Part shown: positions 2,946 to 10,723 of the stretch, in pieces
How the letters are laid out: each line of letters begins with the position of its first letter
Position numbering within the stretch: the first letter of the stretch is position 1
Assembly: GCA_030628225.1 (NCBI GenBank)
Contig: DAOVRJ010000014.1
Span: forward strand, 1 to 18,183
Reading direction: 5' to 3'
Origin: Candidatus Zixiibacteriota bacterium
Lineage (GTDB): Bacteria > SM23-81
DNA: 18,183 nt
Made by a program: the position numbers and the translations under genes
Notes under the pieces: generated by a model
The model's database searches: none
What the model was told of the DNA's origin: nothing
The model's input: the letters and a program-made list of their open reading frames with translations, nothing else

Positions 2946-3037
2946 GTCGTTCCTCGGGTGATGGTCATCTTTCTGGTGAGCAGAATGCCGACCCCTATGG
3001 CCGACCAAGCTCCATCCGCACCCACAAATTCTGGCCA

Positions 3038-3152
3038 CCAGCATCTAGCATCAAGCATCCAGGATCTGTCTTTTTCTTTTTCCAGCATCCAGAATCCAGC
3101 ATCCAGGATCGGCCTTTATTTTCTTTTACCAGTATCGAACATCTGGCATCCG
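3038..3152. repeat. 7-bp CATCCAG repeat blocks with GATCGG ends and pyrimidine spacers
   Basis: Block one (3042-3068) reads CATCTAG CATCAAG CATCCAG then GATCTG. A T/C-rich spacer follows. Block two (3086-3112) reads CATCCAG AATCCAG CATCCAG then GATCGG, again followed by a T-rich tract. A degenerate third block (about 3129-3152) contains CCAGTATCG and CATCTGG. The same block-GATCGG-pyrimidine plan is seen at 1666-1735. Confidence 0.8.
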
Positions 3153-3203
3153 AACTCTCTAAACTCTCTTAACTCTCTTAACTCTCTCAACTCTCCAAAC
3201 TAT
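3153..3203. repeat. 9-bp tandem repeat AACTCTCTN, five units plus part
   Basis: Units begin at 3153, 3162, 3171, 3180 and 3189 and differ mainly at the ninth base (A, T, T, C, then CCA). A partial unit follows at 3198. The array abuts the 7-bp repeat blocks on its left. On its right is another CCAGTATCGG plus pyrimidine tract (3207-3226). Confidence 0.85.
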
Positions 3204-3309: not shown

Positions 3310-3338
3310 TTGACCTATTTTTACCGGCATTGTATATT
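3310..3338 (+). promoter_or_regulatory. Sigma70-type promoter for the DUF3307-to-MutL gene run
   Basis: TTGACC at 3310-3315 and TATATT at 3333-3338 are separated by exactly 17 bases. Each hexamer matches five of six consensus bases. It lies about 55 bases upstream of the start at 3394, between the repeats and the first gene of the plus-strand run. Confidence 0.7.
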
Positions 3339-3393: not shown

Positions 3394-4101
3394 ATGGTTC
3401 TCTTCTGGAGGCTGTTGCTCGCCCATGTCATCGCCGACTTCCCCCTCCAGACGGACGCCGTCTTCGCCATCAAGAAGGAAAGAAGATGGGGCGTTCTCCT
3501 TCACGGCACGATCTTCGGGCTGGTGGCCATCCTGCTGGCCCAGCCATTTCTGAAAAGTGGAACAGCATGGGCCGGCCTGATCATTCTATGGCTGCTGCAC
3601 ATCACCATCGACAAGGCAAAGCTGATTTTCGTCGGCGGCAGACGCGCAGATCATCTTGCTTACTTCCTCCTCGATCAGGCATTACACATCGGCACGATAA
3701 GCCTGGTCAGTCTCTATTTGAACCGGGTTCTCCCGGTAACAGCCGTTGTTGCAGATTCCATAGCCGACCTCTATCTGATCAAGCTGGGCATCGCATATAT
3801 CGTTTCCGTATGGGCAAGCCCATTGATCTGCTATTATGTCCAGGCGGCCCTCTCCCCACGAAAGATAGAATTTAAGGCCTGGCAGCCTGTTCTGTGGCGA
3901 ATGCTGGGATATGTGGAGAGGGGAATGCTCACGGCTATTATGACCCTGGGCGGTAAGCTTTTTTTTCTGACGCCGGTCGCTTTTTTACCACGAATCACTT
4001 TGTCAGTATTCGCCAACGAGAAACCTTTCTCCCTGTGGGAGTTGGTGTTAGGCTCGGCCATTGCCATCGCGGCCGGAGCCTGGGCACGGACCCTGGGGTG
4101 A
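3394..4101 (+). CDS. DUF3307 family integral membrane protein
   Basis: A 235-residue membrane protein of the DUF3307 family, whose biochemical role is unknown. The N-terminus has the family's LLLAHVIADFPLQTD motif (residues 7-21). LLHITIDKAK (about 67-76) and FLLDQALHI follow. The His and Asp residues in these membrane-edge motifs look like a possible metal or ion site, though that is inference. Several hydrophobic segments span the chain up to the C-terminus. The ATG at 3394 is preceded by GGGAG at good distance and by the promoter at 3310-3338. It is the first gene of the run, 45 bases before the nuclease-family gene. Confidence 0.85.
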   Translation: MVLFWRLLLAHVIADFPLQTDAVFAIKKERRWGVLLHGTIFGLVAILLAQPFLKSGTAWAGLIILWLLHITIDKAKLIFVGGRRADHLAYFLLDQALHIGTISLVSLYLNRVLPVTAVVADSIADLYLIKLGIAYIVSVWASPLICYYVQAALSPRKIEFKAWQPVLWRMLGYVERGMLTAIMTLGGKLFFLTPVAFLPRITLSVFANEKPFSLWELVLGSAIAIAAGAWARTLG

Positions 4102-4146
4102 GAGAAACGGGTCGCCGCCAGCGACCAGAGAGAGTGTGAAACCATC

Positions 4147-4638
4147 ATGCAGCAGATGTACGTGAGCGCTTTGGCCATCGACACGGGGACAAACACCCCG
4201 GTGGTGATTCTGAAAGAGACCGAAGGCAAAGAGACGCGTATCTTGCCCATCTGGATCGGGCACGCGGAGGCGACGGCCATCGCTATAAAACTGGCCGATC
4301 TGACCATCAAGCGTCCCCAGACCCATGACCTGATGAAGTTGATCGTCGACGGGCTAGATGGCAAGGTCAGCAAGGTGGTCATCAACGACATGAAGGATCA
4401 GACCTTTTACGCCCAGATCTATGTGGAGCGGAAGAAGTCTCTGCTGACCATCGACGCACGCCCCAGCGACTCCATCGCCCTTGCTCTCCGCTGTGATGCG
4501 CCCATATATGTGGTCAACCATGTCTTGGAAGCCGACAAGAAAAAAGCGGGGCTCAGCGATACGGACAGGGCCCAAAACCTGCGCGAGCGCCTGAAGAAGA
4601 TAAACCCTGAGGATTTCGGGAGATTTCCATTACTTTAA
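4147..4638 (+). CDS. Bifunctional nuclease family (DUF151) protein
   Basis: A soluble 163-residue protein of the bifunctional nuclease domain family (PF02577), at its usual full length. Plant members have been reported to have DNase and RNase activity, but the role in bacteria is unsettled. Diagnostic stretches are PVVILKETEGKETRILPIWI near the N-terminus, HDLM in the middle, and TIDARPSDSIALALR (about residues 99-113), which is the most conserved part of the family. The start ATG at 4147 suits the family N-terminus, though the upstream ribosome site (AGAGAG) is weak. It sits 45 bases after the DUF3307 gene and 100 bases before the TPR fusion gene, consistent with one transcript. Confidence 0.9.
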   Translation: MQQMYVSALAIDTGTNTPVVILKETEGKETRILPIWIGHAEATAIAIKLADLTIKRPQTHDLMKLIVDGLDGKVSKVVINDMKDQTFYAQIYVERKKSLLTIDARPSDSIALALRCDAPIYVVNHVLEADKKKAGLSDTDRAQNLRERLKKINPEDFGRFPLL

Positions 4639-4738
4639 CGGCGTAACCGTGTTGCGATTTTAGCCAGGCACAATGGCAACCACATGAGGGTAGATCATCG
4701 AGGTGCTGTCCATTGTCTGATGCGGGGAGGGACAGGGC

Positions 4739-6604
4739 ATGTTCACCTCGATTTTTTATTGGCGGGTTATGAGCAAAACTCCCTTTCGTTTTGTGCACCT
4801 GAGCTGTTTTGGGCCACTCGTCGCGCTGCTGGCCATCTGTCTTCTGGGGCCTCCGTTGGTGGGGCAGGAGCTGGGCGAAGCAGAGGATTCCGAAAGGCTG
4901 TTTCAGGAGGCCGTCGAGAGCTATCGTGAGGCCGACTATTATCGTGCCCTCATCGGCTTTCGGGGATTATTGCGGGATTCTCCCCAGCACAGACGGACCA
5001 CCGCGGCGCTGCTCATGCAGGCCAAGTGTTACTACTGGCTGCAAAATTACGACCAGGCCATCGAGAATCTGCAAAGCCTGCTTGAGAAATTTGAGCACAG
5101 CACCTATCTGGATAACGTCCATTATCTTCTGGGCAACTGTTATTACCGCCTGGGCCACTCCTGGCAGGCGGCCGATCAATTCCGGCAGGTCATCGAGAAC
5201 AGCGACCTTCCCACCCTAACAGATCTGGCCAGGGATTGCCTTCGAGTCCTGATCGTCGCCGAGCTGTCTGGGCGCCAACTGGACAAGCTTTATGACGGCC
5301 TGCCAGACGACCCTTTAAGCCCCTGGATTTTGCTGGAAATCGCCCGACGGGAGCTATCTGCAGATCATCGGGAAGAGGCGGCAGCGGCAGCAATGCAAGT
5401 TCTCAGCCTGTTCCCCGGGGGCGAACCCGCCGCCGAGGCGGAGAAGATCAGAAAATCCGCCGTTGAAAAACCTCCTCAGACCATAACCATCGGAATCATC
5501 TGCCCCCGGTCCGGTTCCTATGCCCGCTACGGAGAGAATCTCCACCACGGGGTTCAGCAAGCCGTTGAGGAACACAACACTTTCTCGGACATAAAGATCC
5601 AACTGAAGGTCAGAGACTCCCAAGCCGCGGCGGTAAGGGCTGTGCAGGCTGTCAGAGAGCTTATCGATGATGAAAGCACCCTGGCTGTCATCGGCCCCCT
5701 GTTGAGCACCGCAGCCGTGGGGGCGGGAACCGTATGCGACTGTCGTGGGGTGCCGCTGATCAGCCCTACCGCTTCTGAAGGGGAGATCGCGGCCATCGGC
5801 AGGTTCGTGTTTCAACGCAGCGTGGCCGCGCGGACGCTGGGCAAAAAGATGGCCGCCTATGCGGTGGATGAGCTGGGCCTCCGGCACTTCGCCACGCTGG
5901 CTCCCGGTGATGAATACGGAAATGCCGCCGTAGAGGGGTTTTCCGATGAGGCCACAAAGCGCGGAGCTGAGATGTTGATGGTAACACGGTACCCTCCCGG
6001 GGCCGCCGATTTCAAGGATCAGCTGACCCAGATCCGCCGTCGCAAGCAGGCTTACGATGACAGCCTGAAAAACTTGGGGCTGCTGCCCATGGACACAAAT
6101 CCCACCGAGCCCGATACCATTCCCCCTGAGGAGAGAAGAGTTTTCATCGACGGTATCTTCATCCCGGCCTACCCCGAGGAAGCCGGTATGATCGCCCCCC
6201 AAATCGCTTTTTACCGTCTGCAAACTCAGATTCTGGGCACCAGCGCATGGGGCAACCGGGAAGCCCTGCGCATCGGGGGACAGTATCTGGAGGGGGTTGT
6301 CTTCGCCACCGACTTCTCCGAGGAGCTCTTCTCCGAAGAAAATGACCGGTTTGCCGCCGATTACCGTGTCCGGTATGGCAAAAGACCGGGCATGGTGGCT
6401 ACTTTTAGCTATGAGTGCGCCAAGCTAATTCTTCAGGGGATAGAAAATGGAGTCCGTGGGCGAGAGGGAATGTGCCAGTTCCTTTCGCGCGCAGAGGGCT
6501 TCACCAGCCTCACCGGCCGTATCTCGTTCAACAACAACGATGGCGCCAACGATGAGGCCATGATCCTGACCGTGCAGAACGATCAGGTCATCAAGCTTAA
6601 ATAG
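4739..6604 (+). CDS. TPR plus periplasmic ligand-binding fusion, LpoA/LivK-like
   Basis: A 621-residue exported protein. After a hydrophobic export signal (about residues 18-42) come tetratricopeptide-like helices (about 45-235) with phrases such as ALLMQAKCYYWLQNYDQAIE and YLLGNCYYRLGHSWQAADQF. From about residue 247 (TITIGIICPRSGSYARYGEN) to the end runs a type I periplasmic-binding domain like those binding branched-chain amino acids. This order is the plan of LpoA, the outer-membrane activator of a peptidoglycan synthase. No lipobox cysteine is clear, so it may be soluble or anchored by its signal. No ABC permease genes are adjacent, which argues against simple transport. The ATG at 4739 has GGGAGGG upstream; an internal ATG at 4769 would give a more standard signal peptide. 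Confidence 0.85.
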   Translation: MFTSIFYWRVMSKTPFRFVHLSCFGPLVALLAICLLGPPLVGQELGEAEDSERLFQEAVESYREADYYRALIGFRGLLRDSPQHRRTTAALLMQAKCYYWLQNYDQAIENLQSLLEKFEHSTYLDNVHYLLGNCYYRLGHSWQAADQFRQVIENSDLPTLTDLARDCLRVLIVAELSGRQLDKLYDGLPDDPLSPWILLEIARRELSADHREEAAAAAMQVLSLFPGGEPAAEAEKIRKSAVEKPPQTITIGIICPRSGSYARYGENLHHGVQQAVEEHNTFSDIKIQLKVRDSQAAAVRAVQAVRELIDDESTLAVIGPLLSTAAVGAGTVCDCRGVPLISPTASEGEIAAIGRFVFQRSVAARTLGKKMAAYAVDELGLRHFATLAPGDEYGNAAVEGFSDEATKRGAEMLMVTRYPPGAADFKDQLTQIRRRKQAYDDSLKNLGLLPMDTNPTEPDTIPPEERRVFIDGIFIPAYPEEAGMIAPQIAFYRLQTQILGTSAWGNREALRIGGQYLEGVVFATDFSEELFSEENDRFAADYRVRYGKRPGMVATFSYECAKLILQGIENGVRGREGMCQFLSRAEGFTSLTGRISFNNNDGANDEAMILTVQNDQVIKLK

Positions 6605-6630
6605 CCCTGGAGCGCCAGCGGAGAAAAAAG

Positions 6631-7146
6631 GTGAACATCCGCACCCGGCATGATCGAGGGACAACGGCCCCTCCCCCACAGATCTCATCTGCGCAAGACG
6701 ATGGCGGAACAGGGCAGGACGCCGCGCAGAGCACCACAGGCGGGCAATCCCTGAGCTGGACCGTCTGGCCCATGGGGGAGAATCCCCTGCGTTCTGTTGC
6801 CGTCATTCTATTCCTGATGATCGTCGTGTGGGCCATCTCCACGTGCTTCGGCAAGGTGTGGATCTTCGTGTCAGCGATCTTTCTCGTGGGAACTCTGACC
6901 GGCTTCTTCTTTCCCACCACCTACCGGTTGGACCCTGAAACGGTCTCGGCCCATGGACTGCTGTCTAAAAAGAAGCGGACCTGGTCCGGGCTGAAGAAGT
7001 ATTACGTGGGCAAAAAAGGGGTACATCTGAGCCCATACGCCAGGCCATCGAAATTAGAGAGCTTCCGCGTCATCTACCTCCCCTTTAGCGGGAACCAAAA
7101 AGAGATCATGGACTTCATCGGGGAGAAAATGAACCGTGGGCGTTGA
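6631..7146 (+). CDS. Small two-helix membrane protein, unknown family
   Basis: A 171-residue protein with a polar, low-complexity N-terminus (about 1-40) and two closely spaced membrane helices (about 54-72 and 76-94). A basic soluble tail follows, running through YRLDPETVSAHGLLSKKKRT to the end. A short membrane hairpin followed by a small beta-rich tail resembles bacterial PH-like membrane proteins, but I do not recognise the family with certainty. The start is the GTG at 6631, with GGAG seven bases before it. It begins 26 bases after the TPR fusion gene and overlaps the next gene by 11 bases, so translation of the two is probably coupled. Confidence 0.75.
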   Translation: MNIRTRHDRGTTAPPPQISSAQDDGGTGQDAAQSTTGGQSLSWTVWPMGENPLRSVAVILFLMIVVWAISTCFGKVWIFVSAIFLVGTLTGFFFPTTYRLDPETVSAHGLLSKKKRTWSGLKKYYVGKKGVHLSPYARPSKLESFRVIYLPFSGNQKEIMDFIGEKMNRGR

Positions 7147-7465
7147 GCTGACCGAACGACAGGAGGAACTGTTAGAGAAGCTGGCCCACCGGGTGGTTGC
7201 CCTGCGGGTCTCGGCCATGGCCATCTTTCTGCTGGAGTCGACCAAGCCGCTGAGCTTTTTAGGCAGCCAGGTGCTGGTATTCTTCAATCCCATCATCCAG
7301 TCCGTTTTCAACTTTAAAGATTACGAGACGGTCACGGAGATGATCGAGAATCGCGACAACATCGAATATCTTATCCAGAAAATCGAGCGGCTGCAGGAGG
7401 ATCAAATCCTGAAAGAAAAAGAGATGAAACGAGAGAAAAAGGAGCGAAAAAGGGGGCGTAGATGA
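7136..7465 (+). CDS. Small conserved-looking protein with charged coiled-coil tail
   Basis: A 109-residue protein of unrecognised family. It opens with a helical segment (LTERQEELLEKLAHRVVALR), then a hydrophobic stretch with ESTKPLSFLGSQVLVFFNP (about 34-52) that could bind a membrane surface. After NIEYLIQKIERLQED it ends in a very basic and acidic KEKEMKREKKERKRGRR tail. It starts at the GTG at 7136 inside the end of the upstream gene. Its stop overlaps the ATG of the MutL-type gene in an ATGA arrangement. This tight packing suggests it works with the MutL-type ATPase and the two-helix protein, perhaps as a membrane adaptor; that role is inference. Confidence 0.75.
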   Translation: MGVELTERQEELLEKLAHRVVALRVSAMAIFLLESTKPLSFLGSQVLVFFNPIIQSVFNFKDYETVTEMIENRDNIEYLIQKIERLQEDQILKEKEMKREKKERKRGRR

Positions 7466-9267
7466 CCGAGGATCTCAAGAACATCAAATCGGTGCTGGCC
7501 ACCGATTGTGGCAGTACCACCACCAAGGCTATCCTCATCGAGAAACGGGACGATGAGTATCGGCTCATCGTTCGGGGTGAAGCCCCCACCACTGTGGAGG
7601 CCCCCGTGGAGGATGTGACCAGAGGGGCACTGAATGCTATCCGGGAGGTGGAAGAGCTGTCCGGCCGGACCCTGCTGGACGGGGAGAAGATCATCACCCC
7701 CCAGGAGGGTGATCGGGGCAGCGACCTATTTCTGTCCACCAGCAGCGCCGGCGGCGGCCTGCAGATGATGGTCACCGGTGTGGTCAAGAGCATGACCGCC
7801 GAGAGTGCCGAAAGGGCGGCCCTGGGTGCCGGGGCCATCGTCATGGACGTTCTGGCCTCCAACGACGGCCGTCTACCCCACCAGAGGATTGAGCGCATCC
7901 GGCACCTGCGTCCGGACATGATCCTCCTTTCCGGCGGCATCGACGGGGGAACCATCTCCCATGTGGTGGAACTGGCCGAGCTCATCGAGGCGGCCAATCC
8001 CCAACCGCGCCTGGGTATTGGCTACCAACTGCCCGTCATCTATGCCGGGAACAAGGAGGCCGCTCAGAACATCGAGAAGATCCTTCAGGATAAAACCTCC
8101 CTGGACGTGGTGGATAACCTGCGTCCGGTCCTGGAGCGGGAGAACCTGGGGCCGGCGAGAGAGAAAATCCACGACCTGTTCATGGAGCACGTCATGGCTC
8201 AGGCCCCCGGCTACAACAAGCTGATGTCCTGGACCGATGTGCCCATCATGCCCACCCCGGGCGCCGTGGGCAGCATCATTCAGACCATCGCCGCGGTGGA
8301 GAAAATCCAGGTGGTGGGTGTGGACATCGGCGGTGCCACCACGGATATCTTCTCCGTTTTTCAAAACAAGTTCAACCGCACGGTCAGCGCCAACTTAGGG
8401 ATGAGCTACAGCGTTTCCAACGTGCTGGCCGAGGCCGGCATGGATAATGTCATGCGTTGGGTGCCCTTTGAGATGGGAGAGGCCGACCTGCGCGACAGGA
8501 TCGGCAACAAGATGATCCGGCCCACCACCGTTCCCCAGACCCTGGAGGAGCTCATGATAGAGCAAGCCATCGCCCGGGAGGCGCTGCGCCTGGCTTTTAT
8601 TCAGCACAAGTCCTTTGCCGTTGGGCTCAAGGGGGTTCAGCAGGATCGCAATATCTCGGACACCTTCGACCAGACGGCCTCGGGCCAGACCCTGGTGAAT
8701 ATGATGACCCTGGACATGCTGGTGGGCAGCGGCGGGGTACTTTCCCACGCGCCACGCCGGCAGCAGGCTGCCTTCATGCTCATCGACTCCTTTCTGCCGG
8801 AGGGAATCACTCAATTAGCGGTGGACAGCATCTTCATGATGCCCCAGTTGGGCGTGTTGTCAACGGTTCACAAACAGGCGGCCACGGAAGTGTTCACCAA
8901 TGACTGTCTCATTCGACTGGGAACCTGCATCGCCCCGGTGGGAGCGGGAAAGTCAAACAAGCCCTGCATGAAGATCTCCATCAAGGTGCCCGGCGGAGAA
9001 TCTGTGGAGCGCGAGGTTATGCCCGGGGACCTATTCGTGATCCCCGCCCCTCACGGGGAACCCATCCCTATCTGGGTCGAACCGGCTCGGGGTTTTGACA
9101 TGGGCGCCGGCAAAGGGAAAAAAGTGGAAACCCAAGTACACGGTGGCGTGGTAGGTATCGTTGTGGACGCCAGGGGGCGCCGGCCCTTTGAGCTTCCCGT
9201 CGACCGAGCGGAGAGGGTCAAAAAGCTCCGCGAGTGGAACAAGATAATGGATGCATACCCGGAATAG
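7462..9267 (+). CDS. MutL/GlmL-family ASKHA ATPase (glutamate mutase L-like)
   Basis: A 601-residue protein of the MutL family (PF13941) named after clostridial glutamate mutase L, thought to be a chaperone or reactivator for B12-dependent mutases. ATDCGSTTTKAILIE at residues 13-27 is the first phosphate loop of an actin/Hsp70-type ATPase. VVGVDIGGATTD at 284-295 is a second such loop, and LLSGGIDGGT (155-164) lies between. The C-terminal 110 residues form a glycine-rich extension ending GVVGIVVDARGRRPFELP. It is clearly longer than GlmL-type members of about 460 residues, as I recall them. No mutase subunit gene lies nearby, so the client is unknown. Its ATG overlaps the preceding stop. Confidence 0.88.
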   Translation: MTEDLKNIKSVLATDCGSTTTKAILIEKRDDEYRLIVRGEAPTTVEAPVEDVTRGALNAIREVEELSGRTLLDGEKIITPQEGDRGSDLFLSTSSAGGGLQMMVTGVVKSMTAESAERAALGAGAIVMDVLASNDGRLPHQRIERIRHLRPDMILLSGGIDGGTISHVVELAELIEAANPQPRLGIGYQLPVIYAGNKEAAQNIEKILQDKTSLDVVDNLRPVLERENLGPAREKIHDLFMEHVMAQAPGYNKLMSWTDVPIMPTPGAVGSIIQTIAAVEKIQVVGVDIGGATTDIFSVFQNKFNRTVSANLGMSYSVSNVLAEAGMDNVMRWVPFEMGEADLRDRIGNKMIRPTTVPQTLEELMIEQAIAREALRLAFIQHKSFAVGLKGVQQDRNISDTFDQTASGQTLVNMMTLDMLVGSGGVLSHAPRRQQAAFMLIDSFLPEGITQLAVDSIFMMPQLGVLSTVHKQAATEVFTNDCLIRLGTCIAPVGAGKSNKPCMKISIKVPGGESVEREVMPGDLFVIPAPHGEPIPIWVEPARGFDMGAGKGKKVETQVHGGVVGIVVDARGRRPFELPVDRAERVKKLREWNKIMDAYPE

Positions 9268-9269
9268 TT

Positions 9270-9440
9270 GAGAGTTCAGAGAGTTTGGAGAGTTTGGAGA
9301 GTTTAAAGTCCTGAGAGGTCTGAGAGTTTGGAGAAGTATGAGAGTTTAGAGAGATTGTTATCTATGATTTTCGTTAGTTCTTAACACGCTCAACTCGCCT
9401 AACTCTCTAAACTCATTAAACTCCCTCAACTCTCTAAACT
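9270..9440. repeat. Large foldback of 9-bp repeats (GAGAGTTNN against AACTCTCNN)
   Basis: Directly after the MutL-type stop, 9-mers of GAGAGTTNN type run from 9270 to 9305 (four units). After seven other bases, five more run from 9313 to 9357 (several degenerate). About 25 bases later the complementary AACTCTCNN form runs from 9383 to 9440 (six units plus part). The arms could pair into a long imperfect hairpin. It separates the MutL-type gene from the 376-aa gene and could attenuate, pause or stabilise the transcript. A factor-independent terminator is not obvious, though TTTTTTA follows at 9440-9446. Confidence 0.85.
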
Positions 9441-9497
9441 TTTTTATAGATTCTTATGAAGACCATAACTTAAAAGAATAGCGAAAGGAGGCCGTCT

Positions 9498-10628
9498 GTG
9501 GCCCATGCTTATACGCCAGGATTAAGGGTCGCCGAGAGAACTTTGCTTCGCAAGGAACGCCGGCTGCCCCTTCCGGGAACGGTGATGGTTAAAGAGGGTG
9601 ACCAGGTCAACGCGGATCAGGTGGTGGCCAAAACCGATCTGCCTGGCAACGTACAGCCCATCAACGTGGCCAACCTCCTGAGCATTGAGCCCGTGGATAT
9701 CAAGGAGTTCATGCTCAAGGAAGAGGGCGATGCTATCGAGAAAGACGAGCCCCTGGCCCGCAGCGCCGGTTTCTTCGGCATGTTCAAGAACACCTACAAA
9801 TCCTCGGTTTCGGGAACGGTGGAGAGCATCTCGGATGTAACCGGTCAGGTGCTTATCCGCGAGGCACCTATCCCCGTAGAGGTGCAAGCTTACATCGATG
9901 GGGTGGTGACCGAGGTTTTCTCCAATGAGGGAGTTGCCGTGGAGACGACGGCCTCCTTCATCCAGGGAATCTTCGGGCTGGGCGGCGAGGCCTACGGCGA
10001 GCTGGCCATGGCCTGCTCCGGCCCCGATGAGATTCTCACCGAAGCCGGGATCGACGAGGGATGCCGGGGGAAAGTGCTGGTGGGAGGCTCTTTAATAGAG
10101 CTGACCGCATTACGCAAGGCCGTTAAGTTGGGTGCAAAAGGGGTGGTTGTGGGCGGATTCAACAACCAGGACGTCAAGGAAATCCTGGGGTACGATTTGG
10201 GCGTGGCCATCACCGGCGCCGAGGACATGGGCACCACGCTGATGATCACCGAGGGCTTCGGCAAGATCGGCATGGCCGAGAGAACATTCCAGTTGTTGAA
10301 GAACCTGGAGGGCAAGAGGGCCTCCATAAACGGCGCCACCCAGATCCGGGCGGGCGTCATTCGTCCGGAGGTGGTTATTCCTCTGCAGAAGGCAGTCGAT
10401 AAGAAAGAGGTGCAGGAGAAGCGCGCCGCCAGCGAAGGTTTGGTCATCGGCAGCCAGGTTCGACTTATCCGCCAGCCCTATTTCGGCATGATGGCCGAGG
10501 TGACCGGCCTTCCCGCTCCGCTGCAGGAGCTGCCCACCGAGGGCAAGGTGCGAGTGTTGGAGGTGAAGCTGGAGAGCGGCGATAAAGTCATCATGCCCCG
10601 GGCCAACGTGGAGCTCATCGAGAGGTAG
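9498..10628 (+). CDS. MutL-adjacent protein with barrel-sandwich and KOW-like segments
   Basis: A 376-residue soluble protein. Residues about 20-150 read like two barrel-sandwich hybrid halves (LPLPGTVMVKEGDQVNADQV and KSSVSGTVESISDVTGQVL), similar to lipoyl or RnfC-type folds. No biotin or lipoyl lysine motif is seen. A middle alpha/beta part (about 165-300) includes GKVLVGGSLIELTALRKAV and GAKGVVVGGF. The tail (about 316-376) resembles a NusG-type KOW segment: GSQVRLIRQPYFGMMAEVTG. It starts at the GTG at 9498, with AAAGGAGG optimally placed. From memory, similar proteins occur beside MutL-type genes in other bacteria, which would suggest a joint role; no function is known to me. An intrinsic terminator follows the gene. 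Confidence 0.8.
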   Translation: MAHAYTPGLRVAERTLLRKERRLPLPGTVMVKEGDQVNADQVVAKTDLPGNVQPINVANLLSIEPVDIKEFMLKEEGDAIEKDEPLARSAGFFGMFKNTYKSSVSGTVESISDVTGQVLIREAPIPVEVQAYIDGVVTEVFSNEGVAVETTASFIQGIFGLGGEAYGELAMACSGPDEILTEAGIDEGCRGKVLVGGSLIELTALRKAVKLGAKGVVVGGFNNQDVKEILGYDLGVAITGAEDMGTTLMITEGFGKIGMAERTFQLLKNLEGKRASINGATQIRAGVIRPEVVIPLQKAVDKKEVQEKRAASEGLVIGSQVRLIRQPYFGMMAEVTGLPAPLQELPTEGKVRVLEVKLESGDKVIMPRANVELIER

Positions 10629-10691: not shown

Positions 10692-10723
10692 AAGGCGGTC
10701 CGCGAGAGGGCCGCCTTTTTGTT
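10692..10723 (+). terminator. Strong intrinsic terminator
   Basis: AAGGCGGTC (10692-10700) pairs with GGCCGCCTT (10709-10717) across the loop CGCGAGAG, with one G-T pair. The stem runs straight into TTTTTGTTT. It lies 64 bases after the 376-aa gene and only 18 bases before the next ATG, so it marks the end of the MutL-type gene run. Confidence 0.9.

Follow-up and report, generated by a model that had tools for sequence, protein, structure and literature searches.

Proteins of the MutL/GlmL type bind ATP and are usually explained as helpers of vitamin-B12 enzymes, which raises the question of what such a protein does where no B12-dependent mutase is encoded beside it. The question is posed by an 18,183-nucleotide stretch of DNA (the window) from a Candidatus Zixiibacteriota bacterium (GenBank assembly GCA_030628225.1, contig DAOVRJ010000014.1), in which we found no mutase or B12-binding gene, as the initial annotation had noted. 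All seven of the open reading frames that it named are found in the window:

3394..4101, forward strand: DUF3307 membrane protein (PF11750, 6e-17); local neighbour, not part of the core
4147..4638, forward strand: bifunctional-nuclease-domain (BFN) protein (PF02577, 3e-39); local neighbour, not part of the core
4739..6604, forward strand: TPR plus Peripla_BP_6 envelope protein of LppC/LpoA-like architecture (PF13458, 1e-45; PF04348 LppC, 2e-9); not part of the core
6631..7146, forward strand: m171, membrane protein with two predicted transmembrane (TM) helices (two in 14 of 15 family members) and a C-terminal domain
7136..7465, forward strand: s109, small protein with a basic C-terminal tail and no strong TM prediction
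7462..9267, forward strand: MutL600, MutL-type ASKHA ATPase-like protein of 601 residues (PF13941, E 5e-127, residues 11-482)
9498..10628, forward strand: K376, adaptor-like protein with a predicted barrel-sandwich-hybrid barrel, swivelling beta/beta/alpha domain and KOW domain (AF2 model and fold comparison)
10692..10717, forward strand: intrinsic-terminator-like hairpin 3′ of K376 (10 pairs, 7 of them GC, with a T-rich tail)

The coordinates bear out overlaps of 11 bases between m171 and s109 and of 4 bases between s109 and MutL600, and the two helices proposed for m171, the basic tail of s109 and a closing terminator-like hairpin were likewise recovered. Pfam assigns no family to m171 or s109. 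The promoter said to open the run did not hold up, as the window holds 18 such sites, the candidate at 3310-3338 among them, compared to 11.0 +/- 3.1 in shuffles, a chance density for which we do not count it as evidence. Though all of the genes are in place, a gap of 230 bases, which contains an array of 9-bp repeats, lies between MutL600 and K376, and the run therefore need not correspond to one tight operon. The TPR/ligand-binding fusion, which had been read as part of the unit and was an attractive receptor candidate with an architecture presumably resembling that of the penicillin-binding-protein activator LpoA, was dropped, since it and the BFN and DUF3307 proteins turn up only in close relatives (9, 9 and 4 loci, respectively).

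The repeats themselves form two families. The 9-bp unit AACTCTCTN occurs in intergenic tandem arrays at 2227-2284, 3153-3201 and 9269-9440, the last being the partly inverted array between MutL600 and K376; the pattern AACTCTCTNAACTCNCTNAACT is matched exactly at 39 sites spread over many contigs of the same genome, compared to none for a reversed-pattern control. Units resembling ATCCAGCATCCAGAATC, in direct and inverted copies, make up the second intergenic family (1601-1732 and 3025-3117).

By its profile match (425 bits against a cut-off of 27) and its ATP-binding motifs, MutL600 is a member of the PF13941 MutL superfamily of ASKHA proteins, and the only one encoded in its genome. It nevertheless falls below all three curated GlmL cut-offs (NF040745, 232 against 475 bits; NF040744, 222 against 600; TIGR01319, 165 against 204). 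Searches turned up relatives at 80 loci from at least 14 named lineages, 66-88% identical over about 600 residues; the records name Zixibacteria, Marinimicrobia, Eisenbacteria, Poribacteria, Planctomycetota, Gemmatimonadetes and Latescibacterota, as well as WOR-3, TA06, Fermentibacteria, Armatimonadetes, Wallbacteria, Deltaproteobacteria and Bacillota. The phosphate-1, phosphate-2 and adenosine motifs are almost invariant across the 81 sequences, and it is from these motifs that MutL600 is taken as a putative ATPase. The subfamily shares an extension of about 120 residues past the Pfam MutL domain, which is less conserved (45% identity compared to 75%). A search of solved structures by sequence gave no match to MutL600. 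Identity of about 70% over at least 14 bacterial lineages normally marks a protein with a core function in the cell; none of the partners of MutL600 has a known function.

The small neighbours are conserved well beyond close relatives. Profile searches of the 81 loci place K376 beside MutL600 in 67, s109 in 59 and m171 in 24, so that all three neighbours singled out by the initial annotation recur, though m171 is less widely detected than the others. The order m171-s109-MutL600 is kept in all four genomes of the window's phylum that were examined, K376 and s109 recur in 11-12 named groups, and the s109 homologue lies upstream of MutL600 or downstream of K376, depending on the locus. Clustering of the neighbours revealed four more families in fixed order after K376, namely c3 (a DUF6754 protein), c4, c5 and c7. 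At about 30 loci this quartet comes after K376, with two or three tandem copies at three of them; of 20 further loci, nearly all keep its order, and its adjacency to MutL600 recurs in seven named groups. With all neighbour clusters as a control, each of the eight families spans 6-14 named groups, compared to four for the best of the others (gcvPB), three for five clusters and at most two for the rest. At three loci the quartet is accompanied by m171 and s109, with MutL600 and K376 elsewhere; the three sub-blocks can thus shuffle, yet stay in one genome. Around quartets located away from MutL600 we found no further conserved partner.

Several other associations are restricted to particular lineages. 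The block from m171 to the quartet directly follows gcvPB-like glycine-cleavage genes in three loci, and the association is also seen in five others; these come from Eisenbacteria, Fermentibacteria, TA06 and WOR-3 records, and in several a lipoate-ligase-like gene comes after the block. In Marinimicrobia a CdsA-like gene lies directly 5′ of MutL600 in most loci, often preceded by a lipid-kinase-like gene. One locus from a Bacillota record carries two tandem MutL-K376 pairs (645/457 and 614/373 residues), the first of them divergent. A 70-residue family with a weak ribbon-helix-helix match (E 0.015) is found just 5′ of m171 in seven loci and is absent from the window.

Of the four quartet proteins, c3 matches DUF6754 (PF20539) with 375-424 bits (cut-off 27; E 1e-112 to 1e-117). 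Its predicted layout begins with a signal-anchor and a variable outer part of about 100 to 650 residues with weak Ig/Fn3-like character; a TM helix then leads into the cytosolic DUF6754 domain, which is followed by a last TM helix. Both c4 and c7 are predicted to be polytopic, and c5 to have an N-terminal TM helix, an extracytoplasmic domain of about 220 residues and a C-terminal TM helix, with an invariant D-R-R in the short cytosolic start just ahead of the first helix. The DUF6754 model is Rossmann-like, but matches many unrelated enzymes at a background Z of about 8 with no specific relative, and we dropped the fold as a functional lead. Searching solved structures by sequence with c3, c5 and K376 gave only weak, chance-level matches.

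The partnership also holds at the level of whole genomes. In the window's genome the quartet is found outside the window, as c3-c4-c5-c7 on another contig of 3,417 bases. In a genome from a sister genus (G003) it lies on the MutL600 contig about 10 kb past K376, and in another genome (G001) three quartets follow K376. In a further genome, G002, we found m171, s109 and MutL600 but neither K376 nor DUF6754 (90% complete, 220-contig assembly). Where the MutL600 locus has no quartet, DUF6754 was found elsewhere in 22 of 25 genomes and K376 in 26 of 27. Among 294 Planctomycetota genomes, DUF6754 is present in 97, MutL600 in 94 and K376 in 92; 91 have all three, 196 have none, and K376 is found in 92 of the 94 genomes with MutL600. 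Fisher values of 1e-67 to 1e-75 overstate the association as the genomes are related, though the overlap itself is almost complete. Four Planctomycetota have DUF6754 without MutL600, and a few genomes besides G002 have MutL600 with no detected K376 or DUF6754; these mismatches are likely due to gaps in the metagenome-assembled genomes. Copy numbers differ: K376 is usually single, DUF6754 reaches five to six copies in four genomes, and one MutL600/K376 pair accompanies one to six quartets.

The model of K376 (mean pLDDT 88) has the barrel and KOW domains that had been proposed, with an additional swivelling domain between them. It is predicted to be soluble, with an N-terminal barrel, the swivelling beta/beta/alpha domain at 153-296 and the KOW domain at 312-376. 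By fold comparison the middle domain resembles the swivelling domain of rifampin phosphotransferase (Z 9.6), a fold also seen in enzyme subunits such as the AcnX small subunit, and the KOW domain resembles those of NusG/Spt5 (Z about 8). Pfam gives no family above cut-off other than a marginal Biotin_lipoyl score. Profile comparisons with hhalign found no homology among K376, c3, c4, c5, c7, s109 and m171.

Taken together, we think it probable that m171, s109, MutL600, K376 and the quartet form a conserved envelope system of about eight genes, with MutL600 as its cytosolic ATP-binding component. The genes are linked, the quartet keeps its order, co-occurrence is near-strict and a single pair goes with one to six quartets. 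Co-occurrence marks a shared process rather than contact; direct interaction, ATPase activity and a substrate are inferred. The suggestion of the initial annotation, a membrane-linked ATPase assembly with a client other than the textbook one, fits this picture, the linked partner being the DUF6754/c4/c5/c7 quartet outside the window, and the ATPase and the assembly being read from motifs and linkage. As to how such a system might work, the three-domain architecture of K376 suggests that it could bridge MutL600 to the membrane, while m171 and s109 may recruit MutL600 there. ATP binding or hydrolysis by MutL600 would then drive the quartet's assembly or its conformational cycling, with docking likely either at the DRR motif that c5 carries in its cytosolic start or at the cytosolic DUF6754 domain of c3. 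The quartet would do the work in the membrane, the variable outer part of c3 would set what each copy handles, and a soluble ATPase with its adaptor would assemble or energise interchangeable modules in the envelope.

It is highly improbable that MutL600 is instead an orphan GlmL-type chaperone or reactivase for an adenosylcobalamin mutase encoded elsewhere, with neighbours that are incidental. It does share PF13941 with GlmL, and the B12-binding proteins of the window's genome (found via PF02310, whose matches are expected to include the B12-binding domains of ornithine/lysine aminomutases) comprise two corrinoid proteins, two radical-SAM-like proteins and one methylmalonyl-CoA mutase subunit, the last a separate B12-binding subunit encoded with its mutase on a contig unrelated to that of MutL600. 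However, MutL600 fails the curated GlmL cut-offs and its neighbours are kept across phyla. GlmE (PF06368) scores above cut-off in just one of the 294 Planctomycetota, a genome without MutL600, and hence in none of the 94 with it; in G002, which has MutL600, all B12-binding proteins found look to be of the radical-SAM type, with no mutase subunit among them. The rarity of GlmE and the B12-binding inventories of these two genomes mean that the textbook client is not the explanation, and no tie to a mutase emerged to contradict the earlier suggestion; we thus reject a role as a GlmL-type mutase helper. Annotating such proteins by their resemblance to the GlmL family would imply glutamate-mutase metabolism for many genomes in which no glutamate mutase is detected.

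A different possibility is that MutL600 and K376 make up a soluble metabolic enzyme, acetokinase- or hydantoinase-like, whose substrate or product the quartet transports. MutL600 has weak similarity to hydantoinase A, the middle domain of K376 has the fold of the AcnX and rifampin phosphotransferase domains, and the block is flanked in some lineages by glycine-cleavage genes on one side and a lipoate-ligase-like gene on the other. But no catalytic family was matched, the consensus of the swivelling domain has no conserved histidine, the membrane-type accessory genes m171 and s109 would be unexpected, and the metabolic neighbours vary by lineage, which leaves this reading unlikely. Considerably less plausible still is a membrane redox or ion-translocating complex akin to Rnf/Nqr, with K376 as the RnfC/NqrA-like subunit. 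The barrel of K376 matches those of NqrA and RnfC with Z of 7.5-7.6 (7.6 for the RnfC N-terminal domain, over 64 residues at 2.6 A), and K376 weakly matches PF13375 RnfC_N (23.0 bits, below the cut-off of 25.6), though the likeness appears limited to a common barrel at background Z, the eight families have no cysteine cluster, and Pfam finds no other Rnf/Nqr subunit among them. The quartet might also be a sensor or surface-adhesion complex that shares only a physiological context with MutL600, which would not be involved in its function. The variable outer part of c3 ahead of a constant cytosolic domain, the multiplication of quartets while K376 stays single, and the separation of the two units in many genomes all speak for this; against it, no member has a signalling output domain, the polytopic c4 and c7 are more channel- or carrier-like, MutL600 and the quartet are adjacent in seven named groups, and in Planctomycetota the absence of one accompanies that of the other. 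We consider this, too, rather unlikely, and continue to prefer an envelope system with MutL600 as its ATP-binding component.

PADLOC models matched none of nine proteins at E 0.01, and anti-phage defence was rejected. Curated libraries name no MutL600/DUF6754 system, and the open-access papers searched, the scope of our search as distinct from subscription papers and preprints, have no mention of PF20539, DUF6754 or PF13941 and, where they treat GlmL chaperones, nothing on the MutL600 subfamily. We found no known kind of system that contains these parts, though an earlier description in subscription papers or preprints is possible. More tentatively, and with rather less confidence than in the system itself, this could be an ATP-driven envelope machine of an undescribed kind, in which one MutL-type ASKHA ATPase and one adaptor serve several interchangeable four-protein modules with differing outer domains, and MutL-type proteins could make up a wider class of membrane-machine ATPases, with the B12-mutase helpers as just one branch. 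With this set of partners (MutL600, K376, s109, m171 and c3-c7), a misleading annotation gives way to a multi-protein system that can be tested.

Among known proteins, GlmL/MutL, the methylaspartate mutase accessory (NF040745, TIGR01319), shares PF13941 and the ASKHA motifs with MutL600, which differs in its C-terminal extension and in having the membrane quartet and K376 as partners rather than a mutase. Similarly, the GlmL-related ornithine degradation protein Or-4 (NF040744) has the same fold family, but MutL600 scores far below its cut-off and ornithine aminomutase genes were not seen nearby. The NusG/Spt5 KOW, the NqrA/RnfC barrel and the RraA/AcnX swivelling domain each resemble one domain of K376, and among the chains listed none matches all three together. 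In type IV pili, PilM is a cytosolic protein of the ASKHA fold that pairs with PilN, an inner-membrane protein with a short conserved cytosolic start; MutL600 and c5 may resemble this pair by analogy only, as the families and gene sets differ. Finally, c3 falls within DUF6754 (PF20539), a family to which Pfam gives no function and which gains a context here through its fixed partners c4, c5, c7, K376, s109, m171 and MutL600.
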